NCBI RefSeq assembly: GCF_004122095.1
Contig: NZ_SAWZ01000001.1
Coordinates: 124,001-188,000, forward strand
DNA from: Pseudoxanthomonas composti
GTDB taxonomy: Bacteria > Pseudomonadota > Gammaproteobacteria > Xanthomonadales > Xanthomonadaceae
Length of the DNA: 64,000 nt
Direction of reading: 5' to 3'
The notes below the pieces were generated by a model. The model had not been told where the DNA came from. It saw only the letters and a list, made by a program, of their open reading frames with translations, and did not search any database. Within the stretch, counting starts at the first letter, position 1, and each line of letters opens with the position of its first letter. The position numbers and the translations under genes were made by a program. Below, piece by piece: positions 7,288 through 51,548 of the stretch.

Positions 7288-7477
7288 CGTTGGATTGTGA
7301 CGGTTTGCGGGCAGGGAGACGACAGGATGCCGGCGCCGTGTGACAGCCAGCGCCATCTGTCGCGAAGGCGTCATACAGCGCCCCTATAAAGCCGCAGGGG
7401 ATTTTTAGCTCTCGTTCACTCCGAGCGGGCAGCCCTCGTCCAGCCATCGAACCGGAACCACCCTGGAGACCTTGAGC

Positions 7478-8959
7478 ATGTCCGTTCGCAACAACACCAA
7501 GACCCTGCTGATGACGTTCGGCGCCGCCCTGGCGCTGTCGGCCTGCGGCGGTGGCGCAGACCGCGTCGCCTCGCCGGGCGAAGGCGCGTTCCCGCCGGCG
7601 CCGACCCCCACCCCGACGCCCACGCCGACCCCGACCCCCACGCCGAGCCCGTCGCCGGGCACCCCGGCGGCCGACTGCCCGACCGGCACGGCCAACGTGG
7701 GCACCGTGGCCAATGGCACCCTGCGTGCGTGCCAGCTGCCCAGCCTGGTGACCGGCAACCTGGTGCTGCCCAAGCGCAGCGGCACGGTCTACTCCATCAG
7801 CGGCCGCGTCAACGTCGGCACCGATGCCGGCGGCAACATCAACGCACCGGTCAGCGGTTCCCAGCAGGGCATCCTGACCATCGAGCCGGGCGTGACCGTC
7901 TACGCCTCCTCGGGCAACGACTACCTGGTGGTCAACCGTGGTTCGCAGCTGTACGCCAACGGCACGGCGACCAGCCCGATCATCTTCACCGCCCGCCAGG
8001 ACGTGGAAGGCACCATCGCCGACAAGACCAATGCCATGGGCCTGTGGGGCGGCATCGTGATGCTGGGCCGCGCGCCGATCAACAACTGCCAGGGCACCGC
8101 GGTCTCCGGCACGCCGGAATGCCAGGCGCTGGTGGAAGGCACCGAGGGCTTCTACGGCGGCAACGCGCCGGCCGACAACAGCGGCTCGCTGACCTATGCG
8201 CAGGTGAAGTACTCCGGCTTCACCATCTCGCCCAACAACGAACTGCAGGCCATCACCTTCGGCGGCGTCGGCAACGGCACCCGCATCGAGTACGTGCAGA
8301 CGCACAACAGCTCCGATGACGGCATCGAGTGGTTCGGCGGCACGGTCAATGCCAAGCACATGGTCATCACCGGCGCGGACGACGACTCCTTCGACACCGA
8401 CGCGGGCTGGAGCGGCGGCATCCAGTACGGCATCGTGATCCAGCGCGCCGGTGGCGGCGACCGCACCAACGAGTGGAGCGCGCTGAACCGCACCCCGGCA
8501 TCGATGCCGAAGGTGGCCAACATCACCTACGTGGGCAACGCCCTGCGTGGCGCGATGATCTTCCTCAACCAGGGCACCAACGCCTCGTTCTACAACAGCG
8601 TGTTCACCCGCCCGGCCGGCGGCACCGGCGATGGCCTGGTGTGCTTCAACATGGATACGGCCAACGCCGCGACCACCGCCACGTTCCACTCGGTCTTCTT
8701 CGCCTGCCCGACCGCGTTCGGCAACACCACGGCGCAGAACCTGTTCAACGCCGGCACCAACAACCTCTCCAACGGCACCTCGACGCTGACCAACGTCTTC
8801 ATCAACGGTGCCAACGAAGCCGCGCGCCCGGCCTACGGCAACCTGAAGGCCACGTACTCGTTCTTCGACCAGGTCGACTACATCGGCGGCGTGCGCAACG
8901 CCAACGACACCTGGTGGCAGGGCTGGACCTGCGGCCTGCAGGCCGATCGCCCCTGCTGA
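7478..8959 (+). CDS. secreted right-handed beta-helix lipoprotein
   Basis: 493 residues. ATG 7478 has GGAG 10 nt upstream; a TTG two codons earlier is too close to it. The signal peptide ends in a lipobox L20-S-A-C23. Residues about 42-60 are a Thr-Pro/Ser-Pro repeat linker, then a ~430-residue domain of repeated short beta-strand turns (such as ITFGGVGNGTRIEYVQTHNS and DDGIEWFGGTVNAKHMVITG) typical of parallel beta-helix surface proteins. Two cysteine pairs are conserved in style (CQGTAVSGTPEC; CGLQADRPC at the end). Followed at 9047 by a TonB-dependent receptor on the same strand, a pairing I recall from xanthomonads and Bacteroidetes. Function unknown; a surface substrate-binding partner of the receptor, or a cargo of the nearby secretion system, is an inference. 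Confidence 0.85.
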   Translation: MSVRNNTKTLLMTFGAALALSACGGGADRVASPGEGAFPPAPTPTPTPTPTPTPTPSPSPGTPAADCPTGTANVGTVANGTLRACQLPSLVTGNLVLPKRSGTVYSISGRVNVGTDAGGNINAPVSGSQQGILTIEPGVTVYASSGNDYLVVNRGSQLYANGTATSPIIFTARQDVEGTIADKTNAMGLWGGIVMLGRAPINNCQGTAVSGTPECQALVEGTEGFYGGNAPADNSGSLTYAQVKYSGFTISPNNELQAITFGGVGNGTRIEYVQTHNSSDDGIEWFGGTVNAKHMVITGADDDSFDTDAGWSGGIQYGIVIQRAGGGDRTNEWSALNRTPASMPKVANITYVGNALRGAMIFLNQGTNASFYNSVFTRPAGGTGDGLVCFNMDTANAATTATFHSVFFACPTAFGNTTAQNLFNAGTNNLSNGTSTLTNVFINGANEAARPAYGNLKATYSFFDQVDYIGGVRNANDTWWQGWTCGLQADRPC

Positions 8960-39012: not shown

Positions 39013-39097
<85 letters not shown>

Positions 39098-39236: not shown

Positions 39237-39321
<85 letters not shown>

Positions 39322-47947: not shown

Positions 47948-47996
47948 TGCGGCGCTTTGGTTCGGCCTGGCGTGGCCGGACGTGCTGGCTCCTCGG

Positions 47997-48176
47997 CGAG
48001 GGGTGGATGGAAAAGCGCCATCCACCCTACGGGGTTGCTGGCTTGTCTCTTGGCGAGGGGTGGATGGAGAGCGCCATCCACCCTGCGGGCTCGCTGGCTT
48101 GTCCCTTGGCGACGGTGGATGGAAGAGCGCCATCCACCCTACTGGCGTAGGGTGGACAATGCGAAGCTTGTCCACC
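47997..48176. repeat. second array of GTAG-type palindromes
   Basis: Three type-a palindromes (48001-48030, 48058-48086, 48114-48142) repeat with ~56-bp periods and end in CTAC or CTGC. A type-b palindrome in the opposite orientation (48147-48176) begins GTAGGGTGGACAAT. These are the same two palindrome types as at 11768-12139 but in a different arrangement. The rest of 47948-48323 holds no gene. Confidence 0.88.
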
Positions 48177-48323: not shown

Positions 48324-50018
48324 CTACGAGGCGATGGCCTGCGCGTGCACGCCGGCCACGGCACGGCCGGAGGGGTCTGCGGCATTGGCGAAGCTGGCAT
48401 CCCAGGCGATGGCCGCCGGCGAGGAGCAGGCGATGGACTTGCCGCCCGGCACGGTCTCGGCCGCGGCCGGCGTCGGGAAGGCCTGCTCGAACAGCGTGCG
48501 ATAGAAATAGGCTTCCTTGGTCAGCGGCGGGTTCACCGGGAAGCGCTTGCCCGCCGCGGCCAGCTCGCGATCGCTGACCTGCGCCTCGGCATGGGCCTTG
48601 AGGCCGTCGATCCAGCCATATCCCACGCCATCGCTGAACTGCTCCTTCTGCCGCCACAGGATGGACTCGGGCAGATAACCTTCGAACGCTTCGCGCAGCA
48701 CCGACTTCTCGATGCGCTTGCGACCATCGGCACCGACGGTGATCATCTTGTGCGAGGCATCCATGCGCATGGCCACGTCCATGAACTCCCGGTCCAGGAA
48801 CGGCACGCGCGGCTCCACGCCCCAGGCCATCATCGACTTGTTGGCGCGCAGGCAGTCGTAGTTGTACAGCGCGTCCAGCTTGCGGATCAGCTCCTCGTGG
48901 AACTCGCGCGCGTTGGGCGCCTTGTGGAAGTACAGGTAGCCGCCAAAGATCTCATCGCTGCCCTCGCCGCTGAGCACCATCTTCACCCCCATCGCCTTGA
49001 TCCGGCGCGCCAGCAGGAACATCGGCGTGGAGGCGCGGATGGTGGTGACGTCGTAGGTTTCGATGTGCTTGATCACCTCCGGCAAGGCGTCCAGGCCCTC
49101 CTCAAAGGTGTACTCGAAGCCGTGGTGCACGGTACCCAGCGCTTCACCGGCGATGGCCGCGGCGGCCAGGTCGGGCGAACCCTTCAGGCCGATGGCGAAG
49201 GAATGCAGGCGCGGCCACCAGGCCTCGGTCCTGTCGCCGTCCTCGATACGGTGGCGCGCATAACGCGCGGCCACGGCGGCCACCAATGAAGAATCCAGGC
49301 CACCGGACAGCAGCACGCCGTAGGGCACGTCGGTCATCAGCTGGCGATGCACGGCGGCCTCGAAGGCCTCGCGCAGCTCCTGCCTGGACACCTCCACCCC
49401 CTCGACCGCCGCGTAGTCGCGCCAGGGACGCTTGTAGTACTGGGTCAGCTCGCCGGTGGCGGTGTCGTACCAGTGGCCCGGCGGAAACTGCGCCACATCG
49501 GCGCAATGCTCGGCCAGCGACTTCATCTCCGAGGCCACGCGCAGGCGGCCTTCGCGGTCGTGGCCCCAGTACAACGGGCACACGCCCATGGTGTCGCGGG
49601 CGATGATCGCCCGGCCGCCGGCCTTGTCCCACAGTGCGAAGGCGAAGATGCCGTTGAGGCGGTTGAGCCAGGATTCGATGCCGTCCTGGCGATACAGCGC
49701 ATTGATGACCTCGCAGTCCGAACCGGTCTGGAAGGCGTAGGGCTGCTGCAGCTCGGCCTTGAGCTCGCGATGGTTGTAGATCTCGCCATTGACCGCCAGC
49801 GCCAGGCTGCCGTCCTCGCTCAGCAGCGGCTGCGAGCCGCCGGCCGGATCGACGATGGCCAGGCGCTCGTGCACCAGAATCGCGCCGTCATCGACGTACA
49901 CCCCGCTCCAGTCCGGGCCGCGATGGCGCTGGCGCTGCGAGCACTCCAGCGCCTGGCGACGCAGCGCGCCAAGATCGTCGCCCGGTTGCAGGCCGAAGAT
50001 GCCAAAGATCGAACACAT
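48324..50018 (-). CDS. asnB: asparagine synthase B (glutamine-hydrolysing)
   Basis: 564 residues; ATG 50018 with GGAG 8 nt upstream, giving Cys as residue 2 (MCSIFGIFG), the glutaminase nucleophile after Met removal. N-terminal class II glutaminase (RHRGPDWSG, LAVNGEIYNHREL) and C-terminal ATP-pyrophosphatase domain with VLLSGGLDSSLVAA and VLSGEGSDEIFGGYLY. It makes asparagine from aspartate, glutamine and ATP. It is the last gene of the minus-strand aspartate-family block, and its leader contains an Asn-rich peptide frame and a terminator (50207-50053), strongly suggesting control by charged tRNA-Asn supply. Confidence 0.96.
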   Translation of the reverse strand: MCSIFGIFGLQPGDDLGALRRQALECSQRQRHRGPDWSGVYVDDGAILVHERLAIVDPAGGSQPLLSEDGSLALAVNGEIYNHRELKAELQQPYAFQTGSDCEVINALYRQDGIESWLNRLNGIFAFALWDKAGGRAIIARDTMGVCPLYWGHDREGRLRVASEMKSLAEHCADVAQFPPGHWYDTATGELTQYYKRPWRDYAAVEGVEVSRQELREAFEAAVHRQLMTDVPYGVLLSGGLDSSLVAAVAARYARHRIEDGDRTEAWWPRLHSFAIGLKGSPDLAAAAIAGEALGTVHHGFEYTFEEGLDALPEVIKHIETYDVTTIRASTPMFLLARRIKAMGVKMVLSGEGSDEIFGGYLYFHKAPNAREFHEELIRKLDALYNYDCLRANKSMMAWGVEPRVPFLDREFMDVAMRMDASHKMITVGADGRKRIEKSVLREAFEGYLPESILWRQKEQFSDGVGYGWIDGLKAHAEAQVSDRELAAAGKRFPVNPPLTKEAYFYRTLFEQAFPTPAAAETVPGGKSIACSSPAAIAWDASFANAADPSGRAVAGVHAQAIAS

Positions 50019-50052: not shown

Positions 50053-50086
50053 CGAAAAAAAACCCGCATCTTGCGATGCGGGTTTT
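50053..50086 (-). terminator. attenuator terminator in the asnB leader
   Basis: On the minus strand, AACCCGCATC (50084-50075), loop GCAA, and GATGCGGGTT (50070-50061) form a perfect 10-bp stem, followed by a T-run to 50053. It lies 30 nt after the leader-peptide stop and 35 nt before asnB, so it must act as an attenuator rather than as the end of a gene other than the leader. Confidence 0.93.
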
Positions 50087-50114
50087 CTGGTTCCTTGGCT
50101 GTTCCGTTCTTTGC

Positions 50115-50207
50115 CTAGTCGCAGACCCGCATCGGCCGCGCACGATTGTTCGCGCGCAGATTGTTGCGGTCGTTGTTGTTCACGAGGTTGGCGCGGCTGG
50201 ACAGCAT
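50115..50207 (-). CDS. putative asparagine-rich leader peptide controlling asnB
   Basis: A 30-codon frame from ATG 50207 to TAG 50115, with Asn at positions 7, 10, 11, 12, 15, 16, 20 and 21 (8 of 30; start MLSSRANLVNNNDRNN). Too short for normal gene calling. It stands in the leader of an asparagine synthase and upstream of a terminator, exactly as his, thr, leu and trp leader peptides do. No clear ribosome-binding site precedes it. A weak promoter (TTGCGC, 17 bp, TTAAGT at 50220-50215) would start the transcript next to the ATG, so leaderless translation is possible. The pairing logic is given under the antiterminator entry. No homology search could be run. Confidence 0.8.
   Translation of the reverse strand: MLSSRANLVNNNDRNNLRANNRARPMRVCD
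50124..50133 (-). promoter_or_regulatory. antiterminator arm in the asnB leader
   Basis: GATGCGGGTC, inside codons 25-28 of the leader peptide, duplicates the terminator 3' arm (GATGCGGGTT) at 9 of 10 positions, so it can pair with the terminator 5' arm AACCCGCATC. A ribosome stalled at the Asn codons would leave it free, forming an antiterminator; a ribosome at the stop codon would cover it, letting the terminator form. Confidence 0.78.
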
Positions 50208-50246
50208 GGGGCGAACTTAACCCGGGCCTTTGCGGCGGCGCAACTG

Positions 50247-51374
50247 TTACGCGAGCAACCGTTGGATCAGTGCGAGGTACAGCGCTGGCAGTCGCTCGAG
50301 ATCGGCCACGCGCACGTGCTCATCGACCTGGTGGATGCTGGCATTGACCGGACCGACCTCGATGCACTGCGCACCCAGCGGCGCGATGAAGCGGGCATCG
50401 GAGGTGCCGCCGCCGGTGCTTTCTTCCGGCGGCGCGCCGGCGAACTGTCCCAACACCTCGCGGGCGACGCTGCGCAACGTGCCTTCCGGCGTGTAGAACG
50501 GCTCGCCGCTGCGGTGCCAATTCAAGGTGTACTCCAGGCCGTGACGGTCCAGCAGCGCGGCGATTTCCGCCTCCAGCTTCGGCGCATCCCAGTGCGGGTT
50601 GTAGCGCAGGTTGAACAGCACCTGCAGCTCGCCGGGGATCACGTTGCTGGCGCCGGTGCCGGCCTGCAGGTTGGAGACCTGCAAGCTGGTGGGCGGGAAG
50701 CTTTCATAGCCATCGTCCCAGTGCCGCGCGGTCAACTCGGCCAGGGCCGCGGCGGCCTGGTGGATCGGATTGCGCGCCTTGTGCGGATAGGCCACATGCC
50801 CCTGCACGCCCTTGACCACCAGCGTGCCGGTCAGGCTGCCGCGACGTCCCACGCGCAGCAGGTCGCCCAGCGTCTCGGTGGAAGACGGCTCGCCGGTGAT
50901 GCACCAGTCGATGCGCTGGCCGCGCTCGCCGAACAGCCTGGCCACGTGGCGCACGCCGTCGATGGCATCGCCTTCCTCATCGCTGGTCAGCAGCACGGCC
51001 AGCGTGCCGGGGTGACCGGGATGGGCGGCCACGTATTGCTCGGCGGCCACGACGAAGGCGGCCACGCTGCCCTTCATGTCGGCGCTGCCACGGCCATAGA
51101 GCACGCCCTGGCGCACCTCCGGCGCGAACGGATCGCTGCTCCACGCCTGGCGCGGGCCGGGCGGCACCACGTCAGTGTGGCCGAGCAGCACCAGCACCGG
51201 CGCGCCGCTGCCATGGGTGGCCCACAGGTTGTCGACCTGGCCCAGGCGCAGGTGCTCGCAGGCGAAGCCCGCGGCCTGCAGGCGCGCGGCGATCAGCGCC
51301 TGGCAGCCGGCGTCCTCGGGAGTGACCGATGGGCGGGCGATCAGGTCGCAGGCAAGTTCAAGAACGTCGGACAT
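50247..51374 (-). CDS. dapE: succinyl-diaminopimelate desuccinylase
   Basis: 375 residues, identical in length to E. coli DapE. Metal ligands H66 and D99 ([21 protein letters not shown]), catalytic E133 with E134 (LTSDEEGDA), E162 (ITGEPS) and the distal His in [11 protein letters not shown] are all present. It releases succinate from N-succinyl-LL-diaminopimelate in lysine and peptidoglycan precursor synthesis. ATG 51374 is chosen because the sequence upstream is Pro-rich and unlike the family. asnB follows 228 bp downstream across the attenuator. Confidence 0.97.
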
Positions 51375-51548
51375 GCAGGGAGACCGTTGGAAGACAAGAA
51401 AGGGGGGCGGCGCTGGCGACATTGCTGCGCCATCCTCCGGCGGCGGTTTCAGCCGCGCGCACGCCGGGCGGCAGCGGCAGTGTACGAGCGGCAACGCTGG
51501 AATCCGAGCCTGTGCCTGGCCCACCGGGCCCGCGTGCCGACGGCCATG

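Follow-up and report, generated by a model that had tools for sequence, protein, structure and literature searches.

Between dapE and the asparagine synthase gene asnB of Pseudoxanthomonas composti lies a short open reading frame (ORF) crowded with asparagine (Asn) codons, and the question raised by this locus is whether the frame governs expression of the gene behind it. Leader-peptide attenuators of the his, trp, leu and thr type are known in Proteobacteria, and some of them constitute Rfam families. The asnB locus follows their general plan: a short ORF in which codons for the product amino acid abound, a terminator and an antiterminator that exclude each other, and a biosynthetic gene behind them. 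We consider it very probable that the locus is a ribosome-mediated transcription attenuator, which senses charged tRNA-Asn and controls asnB. The case is built from the parts of the element, their conservation, selection on the Asn codons, co-variation in two alternative helices and the geometry of ribosome stalling; from these we infer a leader transcript, its translation, stalling and a response to asparagine. The analysed stretch of 64,000 nucleotides is called the window below.

The leader of asnB and its counterparts in relatives

The initial annotation described a 30-codon minus-strand frame with eight Asn codons between dapE and asnB, followed by a terminator and by asparagine synthase. 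Direct reading confirms the frame (translation MLSSRANLVNNNDRNNLRANNRARPMRVCD; Asn at codons 7, 10-12, 15-16 and 20-21, that is 8/30), the hairpin is found at 50088-50057, and the gene behind it is identified as asnB by model NF006949 (Table 1). Stop-free 30-codon stretches with at least seven Asn codons occur at two places in the six frames of the 64 kb, the leader ORF and the vicinity of position 8,700. The latter stretch (8700-8800) is situated within a long plus-strand ORF, 7472-8959. The end of the leader ORF carries a copy of a terminator arm, GATGCGGGT (50133-50125), and when C50134 is included, ten pairs with ACCCGCATCG (50083-50074) can be formed. The 10-bp hairpin that can be folded around Asn codons 20-21 is absent from some of the leader folds inspected.

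The N-terminus of AsnB, MCSIFG (from 50018), agrees with the N-terminal cysteine of class II amidotransferases. An in-frame ATG at 50069, inside the terminator hairpin, could lead automatic annotation to place the asnB start 17 codons early. At the other end of the gene, a tandem repeat (47991-48146; 56-bp unit, 2.8 copies) separates the 3' ends of asnB and of a convergent acylase-like gene.

Table 1. Coordinates of the asnB leader and neighbouring features in the window
Feature	Position	Strand	Basis or remark
dapE, gene upstream of the leader	50247..51524	-	TIGR01246, 541.7 bits (cut-off 361.8)
dapE stop codon	50249-50247	-	
-35-like TTGCGC of the putative leader promoter, just past the dapE stop codon	50238..50243	-	conserved position
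-10-like TAAGTT, 6 nt before the leader ATG	50214..50219	-	weak TAnnnT match, backed by conservation
Leader peptide ORF, 30 codons, 8 Asn	50115..50207	-	direct reading and ORF list
Segment 1, GACCGCA, codons 13-15; predicted partner of part of segment 2 if no ribosome covers segment 1	50165..50171	-	minimum-energy fold; inference
10-bp hairpin CTGCGCGCGA-ACAA-TCGTGCGCGG around Asn codons 20-21, possible pause hairpin	50136..50159	-	fold
Asn codons 20-21, last Asn codons at which a stall would leave segment 2 free	50145..50150	-	geometry
Segment 2, putative antiterminator strand CGATGCGGGT, within the ORF end	50125..50134	-	pairs with 50083-50074; permutation, co-variation, fold z -4.25
Segment 3, terminator 5' arm AGAAAACCCGCATC	50075..50088	-	
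Terminator loop GCAA	50074-50071	-	
Segment 4, terminator 3' arm GATGCGGGTTTTTT	50057..50070	-	runs into T-tract to 50055
asnB (asparagine synthase B)	48324..50018	-	NF006949, 867.6 bits (cut-off 499)

In the mechanism that we propose, RNA polymerase would start at the A of the leader ATG, so that a 70S ribosome could load on the 5' end at once. With ample Asn-tRNA, the ribosome would reach the stop codon and cover segment 2, the 3:4 terminator would form and transcription would end before asnB. With scarce Asn-tRNA, the ribosome would stall at an Asn codon and leave segment 2 free; 2:3 pairing would then block the terminator and asnB would be transcribed. Asparaginyl-tRNA synthetase (AsnRS) is found above cut-off in all 21 genomes searched, P. 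composti included, so that the supply of free asparagine can determine how much tRNA-Asn is charged, as the model requires.

Conservation was followed in 213 loci of the order: that of P. composti, 40 from public contigs, retained out of the 80 best of at least 590 matches, together with 172 from further genomes, picked to spread over genera in batches of 30, 23, 30, 29 and 60. Two of the batches drew on genomes with an asnB match (329 of 395 and 243 of 398), part of which entered the set. At the limits used, no asnB match was present in 66/395, 155/398 and 11/28 genomes. The 213 loci include duplicates; a usable frame is present in 212, of which 199 are nonidentical.

A frame with at least four Asn in 20 codons is present within 450 nt upstream of asnB in 204 of the 213 loci, as compared with 13 of 1065 shuffled sequences and 3 of 213 antisense strands. 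Five of the nine misses have a frame of the same kind with three Asn (L021, L078, L203, L242, L243). L168 comes without upstream sequence, L195 and L196 belong to family f9, and L183 has lost the element: neither leader nor terminator precedes its asnB, while six other genomes of the same genus (g4) have the leader. Among seventeen extra loci, the leader is present in eight (seven with at least four Asn, one with three) and missing from nine. Of these nine, two are divergent asnB genes (63% identity) in family f1 and the remaining seven belong to different families of the order. Both the asnB genes of other families (L374, L375, L378-L382, L195, L196) and the two divergent f1 copies (L376, L377) have at most three Asn in 20 codons upstream. 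Within the loci examined, the element thus occurs in families f1, f2 and f12, and public records carrying it include Xanthomonas, Stenotrophomonas, Lysobacter, Luteimonas, Rhodanobacter, Dyella and Frateuria. The leader of P. kalamensis (L005) is identical to that of L093, from the same genus. No such leader precedes three further asnB copies (73-83% identity), which their labels excluded from the 213 loci. The labels read Holophagales (L017), Rhodococcus (L031) and Deltaproteobacteria (L045), which points to gene transfer or mislabelled contigs.

Predicted start of the leader transcript

Promoter signals were sought in 130 nonredundant sequences of the 187 with a usable ATG and at least four Asn; five more lack an ATG before the Asn cluster. 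Anchored on the leader ATG, the 130 sequences show peaks at -36/-35 (TT), -13 to -7 (TAnnnT) and -2/-1 (CC), position -1 being C in 91%. In 101 of them, a TTGC begins 35-37 nt ahead of the ATG. TTG[AC] lies at -38 to -33 in 104, and 24 more have it relative to another upstream in-frame ATG or GTG, which leaves two with neither. In 76/130, the hexamer that best fits a -10 element has its end 6 or 7 nt ahead of the ATG, and 51 of these read TAnnnT. A motif resembling the Shine-Dalgarno (SD) sequence precedes just 12 of the 130 leaders, as against 116 of the 130 asnB genes. Transcription is predicted to start at the A of the leader ATG (50207), and the leader mRNA is probably leaderless.

It is unlikely, yet worth weighing, that the attenuator is real and nevertheless not leaderless, with transcription starting farther upstream or reading through from dapE and with the leader ORF initiated in some other way. 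The -10 match is weak, a simple sigma-70 scan finds no promoter at the leader, and dapE, which is encoded on the same strand, ends 40 nt upstream. The -10 scan used as a control before asnB also shows a lesser cluster, 29 of 130 at 4-5 nt, but no TAnnnT there and only 5/130 at 6-7 nt. Against a distant start stand the fixed footprint of -35 and -10 relative to the leader ATG, the nearly constant C at -1 and the scarcity of SD-like motifs.

Codon selection, alternative pairing and predicted ribosome position

Where Asn codons of the leader ORFs differ, the difference is mostly AAC against AAT. In 656 close leader pairs (2-9 differences in the last 20 codons; the pairs are not independent), single-base differences in Asn codons are synonymous in 604 cases and nonsynonymous in 226, whereas the same pairs show 395 synonymous and 1030 nonsynonymous differences in other codons. 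This synonymous pattern at the Asn codons is what favours translation of the leader ORF. AAT makes up 149/350 of Asn codons in leaders (43%) compared with 83/458 in the same asnB genes (18%). The Asn residues are also unevenly placed. Over 81 nonredundant leaders, Asn takes up 0-4% at the six codons nearest the stop, 19% at the seventh and 5% at the eighth, 32-65% at codons 9 to 17 before the stop, and less farther out.

A hairpin is called before asnB in 197 of the 199 nonidentical loci and starts 19-34 nt past the leader stop in 193 of the 197, beyond the reach of a ribosome at the stop codon. The calls are poor or wrong in L173, L183, L192 and L223; on reading, L173 and L192 show a hairpin and L223 an interrupted one. 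The T-tract is weak (at most 5 T in the 12 nt tested) in 25/197.

Pairing of segment 2 with the 5' arm scores 20.1 on average, compared with 12.7 for shuffled sequences; it reaches the 95th percentile in 173/197 leaders and stays below it in 24. Among the 81 nonredundant leaders, segment 2 fits its own 5' arm (18.85) better than permuted ones (16.60, sd 0.27), the maximum of 2000 permutations being 17.7. Typical pairs differ by group: GATGCGGGT/ACCCGCATC, GCGGGCC/GGCCCGC or CGCGGGC/GCCCGCG.

Co-variation was measured on an alignment of 78 of the 81 leaders (L173, L192 and L223 left out). The terminator helix 3:4 is 93.0% paired and has 121 cells changed on both sides, compared with 42 in shuffled alignments. 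The putative antiterminator 2:3 is 76.6% paired, falling to 32-42% when slid by 1-3 columns, and has 64 cells changed on both sides versus 39 shuffled. Two of the five measures for 2:3 are not above shuffles, namely pairs with a change on both sides (6; reached by 129/500 shuffles) and further pair types (16; reached by 434/500). The 2:3 core GCGGG/CCCGC is nearly invariant. Pair 34/103 is particularly informative: it is G-C in 73 and A-U in 5 of the 78 rows (L028, L170, L171, L177, L204), and in the five A-U rows the terminator keeps G opposite, resulting in U.G. The ORF segment thus follows the 5' arm and not the 3' arm, which is not expected of a mere duplicated sequence. The five rows come from related genera and may represent few events; the same A-U/U.G pattern recurs in L367, L369 and L370 of genus g4.

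Folding of the window sequence gives z = -4.87 for the whole leader and z = -4.25 for the part that spans segment 2 through the 5' arm. Over 75 leaders, the mean fold energy is -24.9 kcal/mol for the antiterminator piece and -22.5 for the terminator, the antiterminator being lower in 52/75; RNAalifold predicts the terminator as the sole structure of the whole alignment. Pairing of segments 1 and 2 is possible in the window, and in Lysobacter-type leaders the bases past the last Asn codons can pair with segment 2. Averaged over the 75 leaders, the fold of the 1:2 part is barely more stable than that of shuffled sequences (mean z about -1.0), and protector pairing can be drawn as a weakly supported part of the model.

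Stall positions were modelled with the leading edge of the ribosome set 15 nt past the first P-site base, in 75 of the 81 leaders (six without clear segment 2 were dropped), counting Asn from the start codon. With an Asn codon in the A site, segment 2 would be left wholly free at 446 of 467 Asn codons. Asn accounts for 377/750 of the ten nearest permissive codons versus 21/664 of the non-permissive ones, and the last permissive Asn leaves 0-4 nt in 64/75 leaders. The gap between the end of segment 2 and the stop codon is 6-7 nt in 46/75, at which distance a terminating ribosome would cover the segment, and at most 9 nt in 57/75; such cover is less sure in the 18/75 with a gap of 11-21 nt. By geometry, then, a stall at the sensor codons would free the antiterminator strand and termination at the stop codon would mask it.

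These results uphold what the initial annotation had proposed for the mechanism: that the ORF end can pair with the terminator 5' arm (ten pairs, with permutation and co-variation over relatives), that a stall at Asn codons would free this arm copy and a ribosome at the stop would mask it (in agreement with the geometry of the 75 leaders), and that the parts of a classical his/trp-type attenuator are assembled around the matching amino acid, which gains support at the sequence level. Asn clusters, terminator and co-varying duplicated arm are all kept in relatives.

Attenuation is not the sole role that could be imagined for such an element. The peptide or the terminated leader RNA might act in trans, with the Asn content serving that role and the terminator just ending a small transcript. 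The trpL leader peptide of S. meliloti does act in trans, according to the portion of PMC7298713 consulted. As a replacement for attenuation, this is quite improbable. Counted from the chosen ATG, leaders are 19 to 47 codons long, and their first halves are not alike from group to group; the parts that recur are the Asn clusters and the pairing end. A trans role also leaves the 2:3 co-variation unexplained. As a role added to attenuation, trans action could exist. Far less probable still is a constitutive partial terminator accompanied by a chance Asn-rich ORF. CCCGC/GCGGG terminators are common, and a covariance model of the element (see below) matches many of them elsewhere in the class, with scores of about 26-43 bits among the matches listed, but chance does not account for the conserved Asn codons (frequent in the loci, rare in shuffles and antisense strands), the synonymous pattern, the co-varying segment 2 and the geometry, and we reject it.

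The asnB-type genes of Firmicutes have T-boxes, yet a T-box or metabolite riboswitch in place of the leader peptide is barely credible here and was rejected, given that Rfam yields no match at gathering score. Seven sub-threshold matches were obtained, the best by bits being Leu_leader (22.7, threshold 50), ncS011 on the other strand (22.0, threshold 48) and Thr_leader (21.5, threshold 55); at these scores, membership in Leu_leader or Thr_leader was rejected as well. Thr_leader exceeds its threshold in 0/26 genomes of the genus. In the whole window, two tRNA matches and nothing else pass the gathering threshold. The window contains two tRNA-Leu (CAG) genes (39013-39097 and 39237-39321) on the same strand, about 220 bases apart.

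Similar leaders and known attenuators

A covariance model of the element, R1, was run against 274 genomes of the class, of which three belong to this family. It returned three asnB leaders at 77.6-80 bits; the next matches among those listed score 43.2 and 40.3 bits, and the listed matches are largely plain terminators. Plasmid records gave no match. Of 40 asnB loci labelled as lying outside the order, 21 have at least four Asn in 20 codons, but their upstream regions contain 31-47% G+C, so that Asn codons are common there and the count is not telling; these loci were rejected as Asn leaders. Five loci outside the order that were inspected (L076, L084, L070, L079, L058) have no Asn ORF with a clear terminator hairpin behind it, and 17 others (L262-L278) have 2-5 Asn per 15 codons in their most Asn-rich short ORF, the value of 5 coming from L273. 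Upstream of hisG, 15 loci have no ATG ORF with at least four His in 12 codons, and no leader with at least four Asn in 12 codons precedes asnS of P. composti itself.

R1 also matches just upstream of ilvC in three genomes of the family. The ilvC pattern, consisting of TTGACA starting 35-37 nt before an ATG, a Leu/Val/Ile-rich ORF and a similar hairpin, is found in 8 of 25 loci, while 17 do not fit it strictly. In P. composti, outside the window (L337, 1199-1344), a Leu/Val/Ile-rich ORF has a TTGACA that starts 35 nt ahead of its ATG and a terminator hairpin behind it, a probable second leaderless attenuator. The ilvC leaders are like the asnB leader in the distance of TTGACA from the ATG, in a run of codons for the products (Leu/Val/Ile) and in a similar terminator core, and differ in that they would sense branched-chain amino acids. 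The likeness of the ilvC leaders suggests that the leaderless layout may be general in this family.

Judged by those features that were tested at the sequence level, the asnB element is a leader-peptide attenuator. It differs from the his, trp, leu and thr attenuators in that it would sense asparagine, lacks a Shine-Dalgarno sequence, is probably leaderless and falls below the Leu_leader and Thr_leader thresholds. Attenuator ORFs of the leaderless kind are known. Mycobacterial polycysteine short ORFs are reportedly leaderless, cysteine-responsive attenuators, a likeness drawn from the title of a 2020 report by Canestrari alone; they are alike in leaderless layout and differ in amino acid (cysteine) and phylum (Actinobacteria). 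In the trpL/rnTrpL attenuator of S. meliloti, the leader ORF starts at the RNA 5' end as well (PMC7298713, in the portion consulted), the differences being tryptophan and an alphaproteobacterial host. The ilvBNC leader peptide of C. glutamicum is likewise formed without a ribosome binding site and discussed as leaderless in the portions of PMC4046766 and PMC11857589 consulted, here for branched-chain amino acids and again in Actinobacteria.

The initial annotation knew of no well-documented proteobacterial asparagine attenuator, and our literature search agrees: no asparagine leader-peptide attenuator was found in open-licence papers. The string 'asparagin' is absent from the main text of PMC2965389. 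Xanthomonas AsnB2 appears in PMC3771888, in the portion consulted, as a gene unaffected by the small RNA sX13, which has no bearing on the attenuator. As far as these searches show, what is new is the amino acid that would be sensed and, within the same literature, the probable leaderless state in this order.

A tentative and rather unlikely extension is that Xanthomonadales possess a set of leaderless amino-acid attenuators (asnB, ilvC and perhaps more), in which transcription and translation start at the same point and the leader RNAs, once terminated, act as small leaderless mRNAs or as trans-acting regulatory RNAs. For the asnB attenuator itself, the 2:3 pairing, the stall position and the codon choice are sharp predictions of the model. 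The leaderless layout would also raise a clear question on the coupling of transcription and translation, in a transcript whose first nucleotide already belongs to the first codon. If the model is true, asparagine would join the amino acids sensed by leader-peptide attenuation, and the control of asnB would be explained across a large bacterial group.
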